A stretch of DNA of 45,366 bases from Prosthecobacter debontii (lineage in GTDB: Bacteria; Verrucomicrobiota; Verrucomicrobiia; Chthoniobacterales; Chthoniobacteraceae). Of this stretch, positions 20,436 through 33,686 are shown in pieces. The notes under the pieces were generated by a model. That model was not told the origin of the DNA and ran no database searches. It saw nothing but the letters and a program-made list of their open reading frames with translations. Positions within the stretch are counted from its first letter, which is position 1. Each line of letters begins with the position of its first letter. Location of the stretch: assembly GCA_945861385.1 (NCBI GenBank), contig CAMAUI010000024.1, positions 1 to 45,366 of the forward strand, in the 5' to 3' direction. Made by a program: the position numbers and the translations under genes.

Positions 20436-21191
20436 TCAGGCGTCCAGCTTTAGCATGGCTCCGAGCCGGGCGCGGAGGTCGCTCTGTACGGGGCTGATGC
20501 CGCGGTTCGCATCTATGATCTCGAAGCTGTGCCGGTGCTGCATCTGGGCAAATTCGCGCTGGAGCATGGTCTGGTACGCCAGGAAGCTCTCGAACATGTC
20601 CCGCGAGAGGCCGAGGTCCATGCCGCTCTCCCAGTAGTCGAGGGTGGCTCCTTTTTCAAAGGTGCGGAGCACGAGCCGGCGGGGCTCGACTTGGAGATAG
20701 TACACGGCGTCGGGCACAAGGGCCGGGCTGTAGAGGTTGCGGGTCCATTCGGGCTCCGCTCCGCGGACCAGGTCGCGGGCCATGAGGGTGTAGATGTAAC
20801 GGTCGGCGAGGACGATGTAGCCGGCGCGGAGGGCGGGGATGATCTCGTGTACGAGCTGGTCGAAGAAGTCCGTCGCGTAGAAGAGGGACATGGTGGTGTG
20901 GGTGAGGACGTTGGATTGCTTGGCTTGCTCGATGTCCTCGGCAAGCAGGGGGGAGCGGCGGAGGCCCATGTGCTTTACGGCATGGCCGTTGGTTTCGAGC
21001 CATTCGCTGAGGAGCCGGATGTGGGTGGAGCGGCCGGAGCCGTCGGGACCTTCGACGACGAAGAGGCGTCCGGCGATCTTGGAGTCGCCCAGCTCGGGCA
21101 GTGGGACGCCGAAGACGGGGTGGACGGGCCGGGCGTTGGGCTTCGGGGCGCGGGTGTGTGGGGTGGCGGAAGCTGGGTGTTTGCGGGCCAT
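20436..21191 (-). CDS. Thymidylate-kinase-like protein, second gene of a coupled pair
   Basis: This 251-residue P-loop kinase of the dTMP kinase fold has Walker A VEGPDGSGRSTHI, with Arg where the P-loop Lys is usual (GSGKST becomes GSGRST). The LxDRYIYT segment reads GYIVLADRYIYTLMARDLV, and FESFLAYQTMLQREFAQMQ follows. The usual dTMP-binding TREPGG motif after strand 2 is replaced by KHMGLRRSP, so a canonical dTMP substrate is doubtful. The ATG at 21191 follows the upstream paralogue's stop (TGAcATG) with one base between, so the two are co-translated. The N-terminal 50 residues are low complexity. It may form a heterodimer with its neighbour; this is inference. Confidence 0.7.
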   Translation of the reverse strand: MARKHPASATPHTRAPKPNARPVHPVFGVPLPELGDSKIAGRLFVVEGPDGSGRSTHIRLLSEWLETNGHAVKHMGLRRSPLLAEDIEQAKQSNVLTHTTMSLFYATDFFDQLVHEIIPALRAGYIVLADRYIYTLMARDLVRGAEPEWTRNLYSPALVPDAVYYLQVEPRRLVLRTFEKGATLDYWESGMDLGLSRDMFESFLAYQTMLQREFAQMQHRHSFEIIDANRGISPVQSDLRARLGAMLKLDA

Positions 21192-21192
21192 G

Positions 21193-21864
21193 TCAGCGTT
21201 TGAAGTCCCCCACCCGCACGTGGCTTTGGATGATGCTGCGGACGGTTGTCTGTTGTTGGTGGATGTCCCGCGTCGCATCAATGACGGTGAAGCGGAAGCG
21301 GCGGCTCATTTTCTCATACTGTGCCCGGATGCGGTGCTGGAAGATGCGGAAGCTCTCGTAGGGATCGGTGCTCCAGCCCATGTCGAGGCCGGCTTCGTGG
21401 AATTTCAGTTGCGGGCGCCCGTCGAGGATGCGGCCGAGGACGACATCGAGCGGTGCACGGAAGTAGAATGTCAGATCGGGCATCGCCGCGAAGGAGTAGA
21501 TGCGCTCGACCCAGGCCGGATCCACGCCGCGGACGACATCGCGGGCGAAGGCGGTGAAGATGTAGCGGTCGGCGAGGACGAGGTATCCGGCTTTCAACAA
21601 GGGCAGGATCTGCCGCTCATACCGGTCGGCAAAGTCGGTGGCGTGGATGAGGGAAAAGGTGGTCGGTGTGAGGAGCTTCCCGGTTTTGCCCTTGCTGGTG
21701 CTCGGTTTGACGAGGCTGGAGGAGTTCCATTGCGTGAAGAACACGCGCGCTCCGGAGAGTTCCAGCCAGCGCTTGACGAGATAGATCTGGGTTGATTTGC
21801 CCGATCCGTCCAAACCCTCGACAGCGATGAGTTTTCCGGGATACTTGGTCGGTAGAGAAGCCAC
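21193..21864 (-). CDS. Thymidylate-kinase-like protein, first gene of a coupled pair
   Basis: This P-loop kinase (about 223 residues) has Walker A VEGLDGSGKSTQIYL intact and GYLVLADRYIFTAFARDVVR matching the dTMP kinase DRY motif. MPDLTFYFRAPLDVVLGRIL follows, then a long C-terminal helix region. As in its neighbour, the TREPGG motif is missing; at that place it reads FFTQWNSSSLVKPSTSKGK. The proteins are alike in HATDFADRYERQILPLLKAG against YATDFFDQLVHEIIPALRAG. The start is uncertain: GTG at 21864 leaves a short N-terminus before KLIAVEG and keeps clear of the divergent cdd gene, while TTG codons further upstream would overlap it. It is divergent from cdd, another pyrimidine gene, with about 50 bp between. 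Confidence 0.68.
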   Translation of the reverse strand: MASLPTKYPGKLIAVEGLDGSGKSTQIYLVKRWLELSGARVFFTQWNSSSLVKPSTSKGKTGKLLTPTTFSLIHATDFADRYERQILPLLKAGYLVLADRYIFTAFARDVVRGVDPAWVERIYSFAAMPDLTFYFRAPLDVVLGRILDGRPQLKFHEAGLDMGWSTDPYESFRIFQHRIRAQYEKMSRRFRFTVIDATRDIHQQQTTVRSIIQSHVRVGDFKR

Positions 21865-21914
21865 GCGCGCATGCTGCGTGACTGTCCGCAAAACGCAACG
21901 GGAAAGACACAACA

Positions 21915-22316
21915 ATGCCGCACCTGGTGAACGATGAAGAATTGCTGGCCGCAGCGAAAGCCGCGCGGGCGAGCGCCTACGCGCCTTACTCGAAGTTTGC
22001 GGTGGGCGCCGCATTGCTCACGGCGGAGGGCGAGGTATTCACCGGATGCAATGTCGAGAATTTGTCGTTCGGGCTGACAGTTTGCGCCGAGCGCAACGCA
22101 GTCTTTGCCGCTGTGAATGCCGGCAGGCGTTCCTTCCTGCGGATCGCCGTGTGCGCAGACTCCAAGGAGCCTGTAGCCCCCTGTGGAGCATGCCGGCAGG
22201 TGCTGGCGGAATTCGCGCCTGACGTCGAGGTGATCAGCATCACTCTGACCGGGGATGAGTATCGGGCACGGATGTCAGAGCTTCTTCCGAGGTCGAGAGC
22301 AGGGATTTTAGGCTGA
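21915..22316 (+). CDS. cdd: Cytidine deaminase
   Basis: This 133-residue protein is of the homotetrameric CDA type. It shows YAPYSKFAVGAALLTAEGEV, the substrate-binding CNVENLSFGLTV, the catalytic CAERNAVFAAV (Cys ligand and Glu proton shuttle) and PCGACRQVLAEFAP with the two other zinc cysteines. It deaminates cytidine and deoxycytidine in pyrimidine salvage. The ATG at 21915 gives the normal length. It is divergent from two thymidylate-kinase-like genes, and the pairing of pyrimidine functions may be meaningful. After its stop, base composition drops sharply. Confidence 0.93.
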   Translation: MPHLVNDEELLAAAKAARASAYAPYSKFAVGAALLTAEGEVFTGCNVENLSFGLTVCAERNAVFAAVNAGRRSFLRIAVCADSKEPVAPCGACRQVLAEFAPDVEVISITLTGDEYRARMSELLPRSRAGILG

Positions 22317-22867
22317 TGAACTATAAAAGAACGGATGCTTCTCTGTATGATGACGCGAGAATTAGGCTTCCAGGTGGGAACTCCTGTCTTTCTGATGTGA
22401 TGTAAAGGGCTAATTGTCATGTCTTTCACCTGCATACAATTATTTCAGTCGAGCCGGCCCACGTGCGCTCCTCTCCTGCCTCAATTGAGGGCTCACGGTG
22501 GTGTTCCTGTTGCGGTGCGAAATCGAAATTTGCCCGAGGTCATCAGATCGCGCTATCGCCGCTGGCAGAGCCAAGCGACGCACTACCTGCAACGCGATTC
22601 GTTGGCATGGCTATGGATCGGAAAACATATCATTCTGAAACACAGGGACATGAGTCGCTGGATAGGGTCTTTGTCCGACAACTTAGATTTCATGTCGGCA
22701 TGTCGGCATTCTGTGCGGAAGTCAAAATTCCTGACCAACAAAAGAGCTCTATTCTCGGCTTGTGGCTTCGAGAAGTTCTCCATCCGGCTCGCCTCGTTCC
22801 ATGTGGAACGTAAGAATTTCCAAGGCTGCCTTCGTGCTATTTCACTCCACACGACAACAGTTTGACC
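22317..22867. other. Low-GC intergenic stretch upstream of mnmG
   Basis: This 551-bp stretch has visibly lower GC than the genes before cdd. Open frames exist (148 residues at 22419-22865 plus; 116 at 22463-22813 plus), but they have no recognisable domain and resemble random frames. A palindrome CGTTCCA-TG-TGGAACG lies at 22795-22810. No DnaA box (TTATCCACA type) was found by eye. Confidence 0.45.
22795..22810. promoter_or_regulatory. parS-like palindrome upstream of mnmG
   Basis: CGTTCCATGTGGAACG is a 7-bp inverted repeat around TG. It agrees with 13 of 16 positions of the ParB-site consensus TGTTYCACGTGRAACA. A closer match lies at 23619-23634. By itself it is a weak call. Confidence 0.35.
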
Positions 22868-24721
22868 ATGTTTGAGTTTCCAGAGCGTTTCGATGTTGTA
22901 GTGATCGGTGCAGGCCACGCTGGCATTGAGGCTGCCATGGCGGCTGCGCGACTTGGGTGTCGGGTGATGATTCTGACTCAGAATCTAGACACTATGGGCC
23001 AAATGTCTTGCAATCCAGCGATCGGTGGGCAAGCGAAAGGGCAAATTGTTCGTGAGATTGATGCATTGGGAGGATTCATGGGGTTGAATACGGATGCGAC
23101 GGCCATTCAATTCAGAATGCTCAATGCACGAAAGGGACCGAGCGTTCAATCTCCTAGGGCACAATGTGACAAAAAGGCATATCAATTCCGTGCGAAATCG
23201 TGCCTTGAGCGAGAACATGGGATCGCCATTTTTCAGGGCAATGTTACGCAATTTATAGTGAATGACGATGGGGCTTGCGGTATTCAAACCGATCTGGGAA
23301 TCAAAGTGTCGTGCCGGTCAATAGTCGTTACAACCGGCACTTTCATGCGCGGGCTTCTGCACGTAGGATTGAAGAATATCACTGGAGGAAGGATGGCCGA
23401 TGCCTCCTCAACACTTAGCGAATCTCTTAAAATCCTTGGATTTGAAGTCGGCCGATTCAAAACAGGAACCCCATGCCGACTCAATGGGAGGACAATAAAC
23501 TTCGCAAAGTGCAGTCGCCAGAATGGTGATTCTCCCCCCAAACCATTTAGCTTTATCCCCGAGACTCTTGAATCCCGAGACGACAATATTTTCACATTAA
23601 ACCGATATTCTGGGGGAATGTTTCACATGGAACAAATGCCGTGTTGGATCACGCATACGAACCCCAAAACTCATGCGATAATCCGAAGTAACCTCAGCAA
23701 GTCGCCGCTTTATTCTGGCAGGATTCAGGGGGTCGGCCCGAGATACTGCCCCTCAATCGAAGACAAGGTTGTAAAGTTTGAAGACAAGGAAGCGCATCAA
23801 ATATTCCTCGAGCCGGAAGGGCGAGACACTGAAGAATTTTACGTGAACGGAGTATCAACCAGCCTCCCTATGGACGTTCAATTTGCATTCATTCGGACAA
23901 TTCCAGGACTCGAATGTGCAGAAATAATCCGTCCTGGGTATGCAGTAGAATATGACTACTGCCCACCGACACAGCTTCGCGCTACACTTGAGACAAAGCG
24001 GGTTCCCGGGTTGTTTTTCGCTGGGCAGCTCAATGGCACTTCTGGATATGAAGAAGCCGCAGGCCAAGGACTTCTAGCCGGAGCGAATGCTGCGCTCAAA
24101 GTGCTCGGAAGGACGCAACTGGTTTTGAGTCGCTCACAAGCCTATCTCGGCGTCCTGATAGACGATCTCGTGGTTCAAGGAGTGGACGAGCCTTATAGAA
24201 TGTTCACGAGTCGTGCCGAACACCGGCTTCTTTTGCGACACGATAACGCCGATATCCGCTTAACACCGGTGGCAAAAAACTGCGGCTTGGTTGATGCATA
24301 CCGCTGGCAGAAGCTGGAAGAAAAACAGCGGGAGATGAATAGTCTTCGGAAATTTATTGCCAACGCGAACCATGATGGGGTTCGGATTGAGCGATGGCTG
24401 AGCCGGCCAGAAAATACCTCAACGATGCTGCCCAACCACATCCGAATGAACTACTGCGAGGAATCTTGGGAGGCGCTTGAGACCGAGATCAATTACGCTG
24501 GATATATCACCAGACAGGAAAATCAGATCGTGAGAATGGAGGCCGATGAAGCAGCAGGGATTCCGGATGATTTCAACTACTCGGCTGCTAGTGGTCTTCG
24601 CACGGAGGCGATGCAAAAGCTCTCAATGGTTCGTCCGAAAACACTTGGACAAGCCTCTCGCATTCGGGGGGTTACTCCTGCAGACGTCGCCTTGCTTTCC
24701 GTATTGGTGTGCCGGAAATAA
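22868..24721 (+). CDS. mnmG: tRNA uridine-5-carboxymethylaminomethyl modification enzyme MnmG (GidA)
   Basis: This 617-residue FAD protein starts with the dinucleotide-binding [20 protein letters not shown]. It has [31 protein letters not shown], the [15 protein letters not shown] segment, [20 protein letters not shown], and [20 protein letters not shown] near the C-terminal domain. With MnmE it installs the cmnm5 group on wobble uridine-34 of tRNAs. The ATG at 22868 ([12 protein letters not shown]) is preferred to TTG at 22862. The gene is full length but has much lower GC and different codon choice from its neighbours. Its usual companion rsmG is absent. A parS-like sequence lies inside it. 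Confidence 0.95.
23619..23634. promoter_or_regulatory. parS-like palindrome inside mnmG
   Basis: TGTTTCACATGGAACA matches the ParB-binding consensus TGTTYCACGTGRAACA at 15 of 16 positions, the exception being A for G at position 9. It encodes the residues around MFHMEQ. mnmG/gidA genes are often near chromosome origins with parAB and parS, which makes the match worth noting, but codon constraint could produce it by chance. Confidence 0.4.
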
Positions 24722-24784: not shown

Positions 24785-27535
24785 TCACTTCGCCTCTACC
24801 GGGTGTTGCGTTTCCCATTCGTTGAGGAATTCGCCGACTGGACGGGGCTGCTCGCCGGTGCCGAGAAGCTTGAGCGCGGGGTGCGCGCGCAGCTTTTCCA
24901 CACCGGAAGACTTGGGTGAGATGGAGAGCCGGTTCAAACGGGGGCACTCGAGAAGGGGAGTGAAGTCCTTGATCGAATCACACCCGTGCAGGATGAGGTT
25001 TTCCACAGACGAGCCGCGCATTGCATTGAGGTCGGTCAGTCCACCTTGAACTTGGAGGGATTTTAGCGGAGCGCCCTTGAGTGGTTCGAGATCTTGAAAG
25101 GGACCAGCCAGCTCCGCGTTTTCCAGCGGCATGCCTTTTAAAGGAGCGAGATCGGTCAGATCAGGGAGACCGGCCGCGTGTAGCTCGACAAGGGGCATTC
25201 CACGCAGTGGTTCGAGGGAGCGGATCTTGGTGCCGTTGATGCCCAGCCGCTGCAGCTTCAGCCCGCTGAGGCCGGCAAGGTCGGTGACCGCGCTGTCGTT
25301 GAGATCCAGTTCACGCAGCGGGAGCACGCTCAGCGGAGCGAGATTCGTGGTCGGTGTGTGATGGAGGACGACTTTGCTAATGGGTTGATCCCGCAGCTCG
25401 CGTAATGGGGAGAGATCCTGGATCGGAAGTTCGCCAAGCAAGATGGAAAAAGTGCCGTCGGCCTCGCTGACGACACGATTCTCGATCTTCTCCCAGCCGG
25501 GTAGCTTTTCCCAAGTGCGGAGCACCAGGCGGATGGCGTCTTCGCCGGCTTGCGTGCCGAGGCCGAGTCGCTTGCCGAGCGGAAGGCTCTCGGCGGTGCG
25601 GCCTTGGGCGCGGATGGATTCATAAAGTTCGCGCAGGATTGCTCCGTCGGGCTGACCGGTGGCGGGCCATTTCGCGAGGATCCTCTCGGTGAGTGCGAGG
25701 TTCAATTTCGCGCTCTCATCCTTCCGCATCGCGAGCACACCGCGATAGTCTGCGGCGGCTTCCTTCAGGCGCAGGGAGGTCTGGAGGAGATGCGCGCGGC
25801 GCAAGCGGTGGCCTGCATCACGCGGGGCCACGGTTAGTGCCAAGGTGAGTTGCTCGATGGCGGCGTCGAGTTGCTGCTGAGTAACGAGAGCCTCCGCCTG
25901 CGCGGCGAGGGCGGGCGCAGCTTTTTGCAAACCGGCGAGGGTGCGCTCCGCACGGTCGCGCTCGCCGAGGATTTTTGCCGTGAAGACTGCAGCCGCTCCG
26001 ATGAAAAGCACCGCGGTGAGGATGACAGCGAGGATGGCGGATTTCCCGCGCTTACCGGCGGGGGCGGGAGGAGTGATAACAGGAATCAGGGAGGTGTCGG
26101 CGGGAACGGGCTGCCGCCCGACAGCGCTGGGAAGGGTGCCGCCTGGGAAAGGTGCCTTTGTGACAGCGCCGGGAGGTGTCCCGCCTGGGAAAGGTGCTTT
26201 TGCGACAACACTGGGAGGCGTGCCGCCTGGGAAGGGCGCCTTTGTGACAGCATCGGCTGGGGTGCCGCCGGGAACGGGTGCCTTTGCAACAGCGCCGGGT
26301 GGCTTTCCAACCGGGGCGGCCTTCTCTGTGCTGGCTCCGTAGCCGTTTTGGAAAGTGAGAAGGTCGGCCTGCATTTCCTCGACGCGCGAATAGCGGGCCT
26401 CGATCGAGAGTGCGAGGGCTTTACGGCAGATCGCGAGGAGTGCGCTGGGGATTTGTGTTTCGCCCGCTTCCCACTCGATCGTGCCAGCCTGCACTTTGGC
26501 GATGATCTGCGCGGCATCTGTTCCGATGACTGCGGGGCGCAGGTGGAGCAATTCAAAGAGGATCGCGCCGAGCGCGTAGATGTCCGATCGTGCGTCAATG
26601 CTCCCGACTTCGCCGCGAGCCTGCTCCGGCGACATGCACGCGGGCTGGCCATTGACCGCGGGGGCCGGGCGCTCCGTGCCACCGACACGCCGGGCGAGGC
26701 CCCAGCCCATGACGAACACTTCGCCAAAGTTTCCAAGCAAGATGTTCTCCGGGTTGAGGTTGCAATGGATCACCCCCTTGCTGTGTGCAAACGCGATGGC
26801 ATCGCATATTTTCTGAAAAATGGTCAGCCGCACCGGCAGCGGATATTTTTTAATTGCGCCCTCGATGCCCTTCGCCAGCAGATCGGCGACTTTTTTCAGC
26901 GTGATGCCCTGCACCATTTTCGTGGTGGAATAGACTTCGCCCTGTTCGTTCACGCTCAGCTCATAAACGGGGGCGATGCCTGGATGATCGAGCTGCGCTG
27001 TGATCCGCGCCTCCTCGATAAAGCGCAGCATGTCCCCGGGGTCCACAGTCCTGGGCAGGACTTTCATGACCACGTTGCGCTGGGTGCTCAATTCGAGCGC
27101 ATCGAGAATCGTGCCCACGCCGCCTTGCGCGAGTTGATTGCCGATCTGGTAGCGGTGCGCCCCCAGCAATTCCGGCGGCAAATCTTCGCGATGAGGCTCC
27201 TGCGTTGGCGCGGGCGATTCATCCTCCGGCTCGTGTTTGCGCAGTTCCAGAGTCGTATCCCCGATCCGGATTTTCTGCGAAGGAGCCACCACCACTGCAG
27301 AGGTGCCGACGGGCTGCTCGTCGAGCTGCGTGCCATTGGCGCTGCCGAGATCGGTGATGGACCAATGCTGCAAGCCCACGAACAACCGCGCGTGATGCCG
27401 CGAGACTTTTCCGCCGCTGACGCGGAGCGCGCAATCCGCGCCGCGCCCGATGATGTATTGACCCGGTTCAAGAATGTGCCGCTCCGACTCGCCGCTGTCT
27501 TTTGAAATGATGATCTCGGTCTTTAGTTCAGACAT
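24785..27535 (-). CDS. FHA-domain pseudokinase with linker repeats, membrane segment, TPRs and leucine-rich repeats
   Basis: This 916-residue protein is multi-domain. An FHA domain spans about 5-100 (YIIGRGADCALRVSGGKVSR, then GSANGTQLD). A Ser/Thr-kinase-like domain spans about 125-400: GGVGTILDALEL, the ATP-site lysine K158 in VVMKVLP, MSPEQARGE and DARSDIYALGAILFELLHLR. The catalytic loop reads HCNLNPENIL (residues 257-266) where HRDLKPENI is expected, and the DFG-type motif reads VMGWGLAR, with G277 for Asp. Both catalytic aspartates and the loop Lys are lost. After that come four copies of a 14-residue KAPFPGGTPP unit, one transmembrane helix (SAILAVILTAVLFIGAAAVF), TPR-like helices and leucine-rich repeats such as PLRELDLNDSAVTDLAGLSG. 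It probably scaffolds phosphopeptide-dependent signalling. The ATG at 27535 places the FHA domain at the N-terminus. Confidence 0.85.
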   Translation of the reverse strand: MSELKTEIIISKDSGESERHILEPGQYIIGRGADCALRVSGGKVSRHHARLFVGLQHWSITDLGSANGTQLDEQPVGTSAVVVAPSQKIRIGDTTLELRKHEPEDESPAPTQEPHREDLPPELLGAHRYQIGNQLAQGGVGTILDALELSTQRNVVMKVLPRTVDPGDMLRFIEEARITAQLDHPGIAPVYELSVNEQGEVYSTTKMVQGITLKKVADLLAKGIEGAIKKYPLPVRLTIFQKICDAIAFAHSKGVIHCNLNPENILLGNFGEVFVMGWGLARRVGGTERPAPAVNGQPACMSPEQARGEVGSIDARSDIYALGAILFELLHLRPAVIGTDAAQIIAKVQAGTIEWEAGETQIPSALLAICRKALALSIEARYSRVEEMQADLLTFQNGYGASTEKAAPVGKPPGAVAKAPVPGGTPADAVTKAPFPGGTPPSVVAKAPFPGGTPPGAVTKAPFPGGTLPSAVGRQPVPADTSLIPVITPPAPAGKRGKSAILAVILTAVLFIGAAAVFTAKILGERDRAERTLAGLQKAAPALAAQAEALVTQQQLDAAIEQLTLALTVAPRDAGHRLRRAHLLQTSLRLKEAAADYRGVLAMRKDESAKLNLALTERILAKWPATGQPDGAILRELYESIRAQGRTAESLPLGKRLGLGTQAGEDAIRLVLRTWEKLPGWEKIENRVVSEADGTFSILLGELPIQDLSPLRELRDQPISKVVLHHTPTTNLAPLSVLPLRELDLNDSAVTDLAGLSGLKLQRLGINGTKIRSLEPLRGMPLVELHAAGLPDLTDLAPLKGMPLENAELAGPFQDLEPLKGAPLKSLQVQGGLTDLNAMRGSSVENLILHGCDSIKDFTPLLECPRLNRLSISPKSSGVEKLRAHPALKLLGTGEQPRPVGEFLNEWETQHPVEAK
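26121..26290 (-). repeat. In-frame 42-bp tandem repeats in the pseudokinase linker
   Basis: Four consecutive 14-residue units of the form (V/A)xKAPFPGGTPPxx (first unit KAPVPGGTPAD) lie between the kinase-like domain and the membrane helix. Third-position changes between units are few, suggesting recent slippage-type expansion. Confidence 0.7.
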
Positions 27536-30669: not shown

Positions 30670-31071
30670 TCAATCCAGTTCGCCCAGCGCGGCAAGGACG
30701 CTGCGAAATTCGATGCGTTCCTCGGAGTTCATTTGCAGCACCCACGCAGTCGTGCGTCCGCACGCTGTCAGGCCGGTAATTTGCGCACCGGCGAAATGAA
30801 AATGCTCCGCCCATGCATCCCGGCGTGGATGAAAAAGCCGCGTCATCTCGCCGGTGTCCGGATCTAGCCCCGATAAATTCGAGCCCTTGTGCAAATTGCA
30901 CTGGTCGCAAGCGAGAGCGAGATTGTCCGGCTCATCGGTGCCGCGATGTTTGCGCGCCACGACATGCTCGATGTGAAAAGTGTGGACGGACATATGCCGC
31001 TGCCGAAGCCGGTAGTATTCACAGCGGAATCCCGCGCGCTGCCGCACAAGCTCCCGCGTCGCAGCGTCCAT
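30670..31071 (-). CDS. HNH endonuclease
   Basis: This 133-residue protein begins MDAATRELVRQRAGFRCEYY. It has the HNH core VHTFHIEHVVARKHRGTDEP followed by DNLALACDQCNLHKGSN (H-E-H, then N and the CxxC-like CDQC). A C-terminal region of about 55 residues ends GELD. HNH proteins of this compact type nick or cut DNA in restriction, homing or mobile-element contexts. The ATG at 31071 shares one base with the stop of the upstream small gene (TGATG), so the two are co-translated. Such small-ORF/HNH pairs recur in bacterial genomes, where they look like a selfish or toxin-antitoxin-like unit; that reading is inference. It converges on the DUF1553 gene, 21 bp away. Confidence 0.82.
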   Translation of the reverse strand: MDAATRELVRQRAGFRCEYYRLRQRHMSVHTFHIEHVVARKHRGTDEPDNLALACDQCNLHKGSNLSGLDPDTGEMTRLFHPRRDAWAEHFHFAGAQITGLTACGRTTAWVLQMNSEERIEFRSVLAALGELD

Positions 31072-31337
31072 CAAGCCGCCGATTGTTGCAGGTGGAGCCG
31101 GGCTTTCGCCTGCAAAATGGCGATGACGTTCCCCGCATGGACGTATGCCTCGTAGTCCCGCCGCTCGCTCTCGGTCAGTTCCCCTTCATTCGCTTTTTCC
31201 GCCAGCACTTCGATCCGCTGGCGGACGGCCTCATTCGCTTCGAGCCCCGCCAGTGCCCGCGCCGTCTCCGCAGTGAAGCAACGGCTCACCGAATCGAGCA
31301 GGCTGTCGAGAATCATCACAGGCTGTGTGGCTGGCAT
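31071..31337 (-). CDS. Small helical protein co-translated with the HNH endonuclease
   Basis: This 88-residue protein is rich in charged helices: MILDSLLDSVSRCFTAETAR, then VRQRIEVLAEKANEGELTES and ERRDYEAYVHAGNVIAILQA. No known domain was recognised beyond this pattern. Its stop codon overlaps the HNH start (TGATG), which fixes the order small protein then nuclease. That suggests a regulator or antidote of the nuclease. The ATG at 31337 (MPATQPVMIL) was chosen because upstream residues in the open frame are low complexity. Confidence 0.7.
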   Translation of the reverse strand: MPATQPVMILDSLLDSVSRCFTAETARALAGLEANEAVRQRIEVLAEKANEGELTESERRDYEAYVHAGNVIAILQAKARLHLQQSAA

Positions 31338-31556
31338 GGCGCGGAAATTAGACCGCAGGTTTGCGGGCGACAAGTGAAGGTTTGTATGAAAAGCGTGCGG
31401 ATGTGTGTCGAGAATCTGCGCCTCGCCGCCGCTTTTTTCTCCGCTGCGACACGTTTGCGCCGCGAAGACGCTGGCGATGCTTCGTGGGGAGACGGCGGGT
31501 TGTCGGGTGAATCTACTACATTGCCGCACCACCCAGGCTGTGTTTCAAGGTGCCCC

Positions 31557-33686
31557 ATGAAACTCCCGATCCGCCTCTCTGCCGCGCTGCTCGCCGCATC
31601 CATCACCCACGCCGCCACACTCCCGGCATCCGAAGACACCTACGGCTTCCGCGCCAAGCTCACCCTCGCCGCGAATAAAGCCGCCACGCTCCCCGTGGAC
31701 GCCACGCATCGCGCCTTCCTCTACTTCAACCTCGCCGACCTCCCGCCCGGCGCCACGCTCCGCTACGCACGGCTGCGGCTCTACCTCCCGCGCGTCGTCC
31801 GCGCGGGCGGCGGCCTCAGCGTCCACCAAGTCACCGGCACATGGGACGAATCGCTCGCCAGCGCCGAGCCCACCTTCACCGTCGCGCCCTTCGCCAATCT
31901 CCCCGCCATCGGCCTCCGCACAAAGCGGTTCATCTCCGTGGATGTCACCGCCACCGTGCAAGCCTGGCTCGCCGCGCCCGCGACCAACGAAGGCTTCGCC
32001 ATCGCCGCCATCCCCGGCGCGACGGCGAAACTCACCGCGAGCGTTTCGCTTGGCGCGAAAGAAGGCAGCGGCAGCGGCTACCCTGCGGAACTGGATGTTG
32101 AAATAGCAGATGATCCCATCGCGCCCGGCGCTGTCGGAACTACGCAGCTCGCGCCAAATCTCACGCTCGGCGGCACAACCACCGGCACCTTTAGTGGCAG
32201 TCTCGCCGGCATCGCTACGGGCTTCACCGGCACACTCACGGGTGATGTGACCGGTACGCAGGGAACCACGGTGGTCAGTACAGTTGGCGGAGTCACCGCA
32301 GCCGCCGTGGCAGCGGGCGCGACTCTCGCGAATACGGCGATCACTCCCAGCGGAAGTTTCAGCCTGCCCGCGACGAGTGGCGCTACCGTGGGCGTCATCA
32401 CGCAAGGCGGCAGCCCATTGATACACACGTTTGGAATCAACAACTTCTTTGCCGGTACCGGGGCGGGCAATTTCACCATGACGGGAAGCAGCAACACGGC
32501 CAGCGGCGTTGGTGCGCTTCAAAACAACTTCACGGGCAGCAGCGATACCGCCCACGGCCTCAATGCGCTTTTCAGCAACACCATCGGGAATGACAACACG
32601 GCTATCGGTGCCACTGCGCTCCAGAACAACACGACCGGCAACAACAACTCCGCCAGTGGTGTCAATGCGCTTGCTGGCAACACAACCGGCGACCACAACA
32701 CCGCCAATGGTGCCAATGCGCTGCGGTTCAACACGACGGGCAGCAGCAATACGGCCAGCGGCGTCGGTGCGCTTCAAAACAACATGACTGGCGTCAACAA
32801 TGTGGCCAGTGGCGTGAATGCGCTCCAGGCCAACACGACGGGCAGTAGCAACACCGCTCTCGGTCAGAGTGCGCTCTTCAACAACACAACGGCGGACAAC
32901 AATACCGCCATCGGCCACCACTCTCTCTTCAACAATACGACCGGCTTCAACAATATCGCCAGCGGTCTGAGTGCGCTCGCAAGCAACACGACCGGCAACA
33001 GCAATACGGCATACGGTATAAATTCGCTCCAATTCAGCACGACGGGCGACAGCAACACGGGCATCGGTCTCAATGCTCTTCAGTCTAACACGACTGGCAC
33101 GAACAACACCGCTATCGGCACCAGCGCCGGCAACGCGCTCACCTCCGGCAGCAACAACATCGACATCGGCAACGTGGGCGTGGCGGGTGAATCCGGCATC
33201 ATCCGCATCGGAACGACGGGCAACCAGAGCAAGACGTTCATCGCTGGCATCCGCGGCGTGACCACCGGAGTGGCTAACGGCGTCACGGTGCTGATCGACG
33301 GCAACGGACAACTCGGCACCATCTCATCCTCGCGCCGCTACAAGGAAGACATCGCCGACATGGGCGACACGAGCGCACGCATCGGCGCGCTGCGCCCCGT
33401 GACTTTCCGCTATAAGAATCCTTATGCCGACGGCGGAAAACCCGTCCAATATGGCCTCATCGCCGAGGAAGTGGCCGAGGTCTTTCCCGAGTTGACTGTC
33501 TTCAACGAAGATGGCCAGCCGGAGACCGTGAAGTATCAGGATATCACGCCACTGTTGCTCAATGAATTCCTCAAAGAGCGCCGCCGAACCAAAGACGTGG
33601 AGACCGCGCTGCGTGAGGAAAACGCCGACTTGAAGAAGCGCCTCGAACGGCTCGAAACACTGCTCCCCGCCACCACGGCGAAGTGA
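31557..33686 (+). CDS. Secreted DNRLRE / beta-repeat protein with C-terminal Peptidase_S74 chaperone domain
   Basis: This 709-residue protein has a signal peptide (MKLPIRLSAALLAASITHAA). A DNRLRE/CBM96-like jelly roll follows (THRAFLYFNLADLPPGATLR; ISVDVTATVQAWLAAP). A glycine/threonine-rich collar comes next, then thirteen 17-residue repeats (residues 311-531, pattern xNTAxGxxALxxNTTG) like YadA-head or tail-fibre beta-rolls. The Peptidase_S74 intramolecular chaperone spans about 589-680 (SSSRRYKEDI; PVQYGLIAEEVAEVFPEL). A putative Ser-Lys pair is S591 and K596. A final coiled coil (VETALREENADLKKRLERLE) ends the protein. In characterised members the S74 domain trimerises the fibre and cleaves itself off. 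No phage genes are nearby, so a surface fibre or adhesin is the likely role. The frame is open back to 30813, but only 31557 gives a signal peptide. Confidence 0.82.
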   Translation: MKLPIRLSAALLAASITHAATLPASEDTYGFRAKLTLAANKAATLPVDATHRAFLYFNLADLPPGATLRYARLRLYLPRVVRAGGGLSVHQVTGTWDESLASAEPTFTVAPFANLPAIGLRTKRFISVDVTATVQAWLAAPATNEGFAIAAIPGATAKLTASVSLGAKEGSGSGYPAELDVEIADDPIAPGAVGTTQLAPNLTLGGTTTGTFSGSLAGIATGFTGTLTGDVTGTQGTTVVSTVGGVTAAAVAAGATLANTAITPSGSFSLPATSGATVGVITQGGSPLIHTFGINNFFAGTGAGNFTMTGSSNTASGVGALQNNFTGSSDTAHGLNALFSNTIGNDNTAIGATALQNNTTGNNNSASGVNALAGNTTGDHNTANGANALRFNTTGSSNTASGVGALQNNMTGVNNVASGVNALQANTTGSSNTALGQSALFNNTTADNNTAIGHHSLFNNTTGFNNIASGLSALASNTTGNSNTAYGINSLQFSTTGDSNTGIGLNALQSNTTGTNNTAIGTSAGNALTSGSNNIDIGNVGVAGESGIIRIGTTGNQSKTFIAGIRGVTTGVANGVTVLIDGNGQLGTISSSRRYKEDIADMGDTSARIGALRPVTFRYKNPYADGGKPVQYGLIAEEVAEVFPELTVFNEDGQPETVKYQDITPLLLNEFLKERRRTKDVETALREENADLKKRLERLETLLPATTAK
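32487..33149 (+). repeat. Thirteen 51-bp coding tandem repeats
   Basis: The 17-residue units start at 32487 and run without gaps to 33149. The consensus is SSNTASGVxALxxNTTG, with Asn/Thr/Ala and a GxxAL core conserved. They are diverged at DNA level, so they are old rather than freshly amplified. The pattern suits a trimeric beta-roll. Confidence 0.8.

Follow-up and report, generated by a model that had tools for sequence, protein, structure and literature searches.

A predicted pseudokinase receptor in one lineage of a common bacterial FHA-kinase family

When a bacterial receptor kinase loses its catalytic residues, does the gene decay or is it kept as a non-catalytic module? This question is raised by a gene of Prosthecobacter debontii, lying in a stretch of 45,366 nucleotides (hereafter the window). 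The genome measures 4.29 Mb in 174 contigs, and the variant described here is known from this one assembly. The ORF starts with ATG and spans 916 codons with zero internal stops, and its start position is backed by that of the orthologue in genome G128. The gene has the following features:

24785..27535, minus strand: whole gene, encoding an FHA-pseudokinase-TM-TPR-LRR protein of 916 aa (ORF and Pfam)
27260..27457, minus strand: FHA domain, residues 27-92 (Pfam PF00498, E-value 3.8e-13)
26375..27151, minus strand: protein-kinase fold, catalytically degraded, residues 129-387 (PF00069, E-value 3e-24)
26921..26923, minus strand: gatekeeper T205 (M205T), Met in 146/146 homologues without the Asp losses
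26744..26767, minus strand: catalytic loop HCNLNPEN, residues 257-264 (R258C, D259N, K261N)
26621..26707, minus strand: DFG-type motif reading GWG (D277G), with a shortened activation segment; residues 277-305
26119..26299, minus strand: Pro-rich linker, a 42-bp unit repeated 4.3 times, not in the orthologues
25982..26038, minus strand: transmembrane helix, residues 500-518 (hydropathy; single hydrophobic helix)
25565..25879, minus strand: helical TPR-like stretch, residues 553-657 (low-confidence model; weak TPR matches in orthologues)
24920..25477, minus strand: internalin-type LRR, residues 687-872 (LRR_4 near cut-off, AlphaFold model, Foldseek)

Most of this architecture had been proposed in the first-pass annotation and was recovered by Pfam, by hydropathy and, for the LRR, by AlphaFold and Foldseek. 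The FHA domain carries the phospho-Thr-binding signature (G30-R31, S45-R46-H47-H48 and N67-G68), and at FHA columns conserved at 95% the focal protein shows no departures. The domain that follows has a Hanks-type Ser/Thr kinase fold (PF00069, 86.3 bits against a cut-off of 31.7) with PknB as its best PDB match (phmmer, E-value 3e-35); a single-sequence AlphaFold model of this domain had a pLDDT of 36 and was set aside. The N-terminus is predicted to lie inside, with GKRGK ahead of the membrane helix. Also ahead of the helix, the 42-bp linker unit encodes a Pro/Gly-rich repeat, and none was found in the orthologues from G128 and G291. At the C-terminal end, the LRR_4 score is slightly under the Pfam cut-off. 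A solenoid was modelled here with a pLDDT of about 76-92 across residues 708-867 (AlphaFold from a single sequence, run on the C-terminal part and confident only in the LRR), and Foldseek matched it to internalins (InlA, E-value 2.6e-8 across 205 columns). The proposed TPR is less firm. It has zero Pfam matches in the focal protein, and weak matches in the orthologues together with the low-confidence helical model make the assignment likely.

The catalytic motifs had been read correctly, with HCNLNPEN in the loop, MGWG (residues 276-279) at the DFG-type position and the ATP-site lysine K158 retained. Of the three residues expected in a catalytically competent kinase (HRD Asp, DFG Asp and beta3 Lys), two are lost (D259N and D277G), in addition to K261N, R258C and the activation-segment Thr residues, which makes this a pseudokinase by sequence definition. 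The loss extends further than the three changed residues in an otherwise intact domain that were first described. Ten of 38 invariant kinase columns, taken from 47 homologues with intact motifs, differ in the focal protein (M140V, A156V, Y203S, M205T, L236R, R258C, D259N, K261N, D277G and G292P). These columns sit mostly in the active site, and the intact members that were checked likewise depart at 0 to 2 of the 38. The activation segment is reduced to 20 residues, compared to 37 in both orthologues (17 gone), and both of its conserved Thr are missing from columns that are 98% and 96% conserved in active members. In kinases, the HRD Arg normally binds the Thr phosphates of the activation segment and so contacts the segment in its phosphorylated form; R258C and the missing Thr thus form a coherent pair of changes. 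Retained are the beta3 Lys K158, the alphaC Glu E175, the loop Asn N264, G279, the SDIYALG motif and the glycine-rich loop GGVG. It is well supported that the focal kinase domain is non-catalytic, as judged from its sequence.

The nearest relatives of the focal protein are found in two congeneric genomes, G128 (contig C51) and G291 (contig C31), with kinase domains 67-68% identical and C-terminal parts 41-42% identical to those of the focal protein; as assembled, the G291 copy has a broken N-terminal part. The first-pass annotation had asked whether the altered motifs are shared by orthologues. Both relatives match the focal protein in domain order but read HRDLKPEN and MDWGLAR, and a catalytic loss common to the orthologues was thus rejected. 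Unlike the focal protein, they also have a TQTG..GTPTYMSPEQ segment, a Met gatekeeper and no Pro-rich repeat linker. In the tree, the focal protein groups with these two orthologues (support 100/98) within a clade of intact kinases, and because of this nesting the catalytic losses are derived on the focal branch. Gene neighbours of the focal gene and of the orthologues are not alike, so orthology rests on the tree rather than on synteny. The order FHA-kinase-TM-TPR-LRR, at first thought unusual, was found in the orthologues and several paralogues as well; the receptor-like fusion is ordinary and common in this bacterial family. By its sequence, the focal gene is a real bacterial pseudokinase, specific to its lineage, within a common receptor architecture.

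Active FHA kinases occur in the same genomes. In the focal genome, an intact FHA-kinase paralogue on contig C95 was the closest other FHA kinase with intact motifs that was seen. The G128 orthologue adjoins a second, short FHA kinase that is intact; no close match to this short kinase was seen in the focal genome, and no kinase gene is adjacent to the focal gene within the window.

We determined how often such losses occurred in an alignment covering 40 family genomes and about 150 distinct homologues. Both Asp are missing in only four homologues: the focal protein, one in G307 and two in G133. The tree counts three independent losses (bootstrap 5-95% range 3-3), with the G307 row on a long branch whose exact placement is unsure. 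A single origin of the four pseudokinases was rejected, as the tree requires three changes. Losses of this kind were also sought with a restricted DNA pattern, which does not cover every codon and overlooked two of the four pseudokinases. It gave two cases in 384 class genomes and the identical two in the family, while the intact-type pattern matched in 28/40 family genomes. In a contig search, only two distant Rubripirellula kinases were found.

The other pseudokinases differ in their arrangement. On contig C474 of G307 (L053:1462-2769), a shorter FHA-pseudokinase with HCTLRPEN and NNWG ends after the kinase domain. Three of its changes, R258C, Y203S and M205T, also occur in the focal protein, an apparent convergence. 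On contig C14 of G133 (L071:4353-9658), a pseudokinase with HRNLKPEN and MNWG lies immediately upstream of an intact family kinase, the two genes overlapping; this pair is possibly a kinase/pseudokinase operon. The second G133 case (contig C13, L070:5675-7957) is a split gene: one piece carries the kinase and TPR, the other the LRR, and an intact kinase gene comes after them. In both G133 pseudokinases, His or Arg replaces the beta3 Lys. The gatekeeper is Thr in 4/4 pseudokinases versus Met in 146/146 other homologues, and in a simulation of random parallel change any column with an identical replacement in three lineages arose with p = 0.011. This parallel Met-to-Thr change across the losses is suggestive only. 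A rather doubtful extension is that FHA-kinase receptors were converted three times by one package, comprising the loss of both Asp, the gatekeeper change from Met to Thr and a shortened activation segment, into non-catalytic partners of active sister kinases. If true, this repeated conversion would be a bacterial counterpart of receptor pairs of kinase and pseudokinase such as HER2/HER3.

Because the catalytic residues are lost while the remainder is under selection, the focal protein probably acts as a binding and signalling partner and not as an enzyme. Our preferred reading, to which we assign a probability of roughly 0.6, is a lineage-specific pseudokinase receptor that serves as a phospho-Thr-reading scaffold or as an allosteric partner of an active kinase. 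The protein would be a receptor with a single membrane pass, its cytoplasmic kinase domain retained without phosphotransfer as a folded non-catalytic module. Its LRR/TPR part would receive a signal outside the membrane, and its FHA domain would read phospho-Thr written by an active kinase, for example the C95 FHA kinase. The pseudokinase domain could then be the allosteric partner of such a kinase or, plausibly, its scaffold. The intact C95 paralogue and the overlapping gene pair of G133 favour this reading; that no kinase gene adjoins the focal gene in the window, and that no near match to the short G128 kinase was seen, weigh against it.

Since K158, E175, N264 and GGVG are retained, the pseudokinase domain may bind nucleotide without metal. 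A sub-case of the preferred reading, rather than its opposite, is that metal-independent ATP binding sets the receptor conformation shown to the partner. This switch would fit an ATP site that is kept while the metal-binding Asp is lost. Its working principle is that of STRADalpha, whose non-catalytic kinase fold has kept its ATP site usable; STRADalpha binds ATP without a cation and activates the active kinase LKB1 (PMC4718504). STRADalpha is eukaryotic and LKB1 is its known partner, whereas the partner of the focal protein is a putative one. The G133 pseudokinases speak against the switch, and nucleotide binding is not a common requirement, because they are without the beta3 Lys. We regard the switch as a tentative possibility.

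It had initially been proposed that selection for a non-catalytic scaffold, rather than random decay, explains the altered motifs. Conversely, the gene might be an early-stage relic that lost its activity and drifts as a whole, too recently to have acquired stops. The ten changed invariant columns would be consistent with this, as would the long end branch of the focal protein (0.65, against 0.02-0.08 in both orthologues) and the N-lobe, for which neutrality alone was not rejected (p = 0.58, codon model). The wider evidence points the other way. In the codon model, omega of the kinase on the focal branch was 0.18 versus 0.10 in the background (p = 0.046) and omega of the FHA domain was 0.08, figures that are rough because synonymous sites are saturated and because part of the focal branch predates the loss. 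Neutrality on this branch was rejected for the whole kinase (p = 7e-6), for its C-lobe and for the FHA domain (p = 6e-4), whose conserved columns are unaltered. Neutral simulations reached ten changed invariant residues after about 406 substitutions, with 8.5 stops on average, and only 0.3% of runs had zero stops, as the focal frame does. Identity between the focal and G128 kinases (67%) equals that of MnmG between these genomes (66.6%), and G128 and G291 are 94-95% identical in the kinase and MnmG alike. Constraint is partly relaxed, as the focal kinase has diverged slightly further from G128 than the active kinases of G311 and G289 (71-72%). A drifting relic is therefore unlikely. That selection, not plain decay, maintained the gene is supported by the open frame, the intact FHA domain and the constraint on the kinase as a whole.

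A non-canonical activity, either weak phosphotransfer or another nucleotide-dependent transfer via K158, E175 and N264, is more improbable still. The retained ATP-site Lys, alphaC Glu, loop Asn and GGVG would allow it, and some pseudokinases perform AMPylation or glutamylation according to the available text of a 2025 review (PMC12599244). Yet the loop Lys has gone along with both Asp, D277 has no acidic substitute, and SelO and SidJ are listed in a table of that text as retaining the DFG-type Asp, unlike the focal protein (PMC12599244). An assembly or base-call error imitating catalytic loss can practically be dismissed, for although there is a single assembly in 174 contigs, the error would have to produce four separate nonsynonymous changes across two motifs with no frameshift, besides an in-frame shortening by 17 residues and coordinated active-site changes elsewhere.

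How does the preferred pseudokinase receptor compare to known systems? PknB of Mycobacterium tuberculosis is an active Hanks-type Ser/Thr kinase with PASTA sensors and no FHA domain. Its layout of kinase, TM helix and extracellular sensor, as generally known, is shared by the focal protein, which is without the catalytic Asp, the metal Asp and the activation-loop Thr. PknB-like dimer contacts were uninformative: positions matching R10 and D76 vary across the family, and the one matching L33 is T in the focal protein.

Among pseudokinases, EssB/YukC is described in the available review text as a single-pass membrane scaffold of type VIIb secretion with a shortened activation loop (PMC12599244). 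The focal protein is similar in these membrane and loop features. In EssB, which has a role in secretion, none of the three motifs survives and the glycine-rich loop is lost too, whereas the focal protein retains GGVG and K158 and thus falls outside EssB/YukC; no secretion genes were present among the scanned neighbours (MnmG, a PSD1/PSCyt protein, thymidylate kinases and cytidine deaminase). The PSCyt/PSD proteins suggest a genome of planctomycete/verrucomicrobial type. The MviN pseudokinase (ActPs3) works with the FHA domain of FhaA, as the accessible parts of two sources state (PMC12599244, PMC4718504). In that system pseudokinase and FHA domain belong to different proteins and nucleotide binding by MviN was not found, whereas FHA and pseudokinase form one chain in the focal protein, which retains K158. 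The review text, as far as available, counts seven bacterial pseudokinase families (named ActPs1-3, GLW, CP1, DYD and DLHK) and several single cases; it includes no FHA-LRR receptor among the described pseudokinases and mentions neither Verrucomicrobia nor Planctomycetes (PMC12599244). Compared by description only with this text, the combination of VVMK, HCNLNPEN and GWG in an FHA-LRR protein fits no described family (PMC12599244).

Other genes in the window were also noted. The MnmG gene (22862-24721) has 50% GC versus 64% for the window. A horizontal origin was rejected, and the low GC looks genus-wide, because the MnmG loci of congeners have 49-59% GC. Two adjoining thymidylate-kinase-like genes on the minus strand (20436-22014) lie beside a cytidine deaminase gene on the plus strand, and a long repeat protein with a terminal Peptidase_S74 (endosialidase chaperone) domain is encoded at 30813-33686. 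A sigma-70 promoter scan gave no match.

Bacterial pseudokinases are known yet hardly studied. Here, a single genus holds a predicted pseudokinase as well as intact orthologues that share its architecture, and the tree gives the loss a direction; this set would therefore allow a direct test of what becomes of a receptor kinase after catalysis is lost. Within the family, repeated loss with the same gatekeeper change may offer a comparative test for a common path of pseudokinase conversion.
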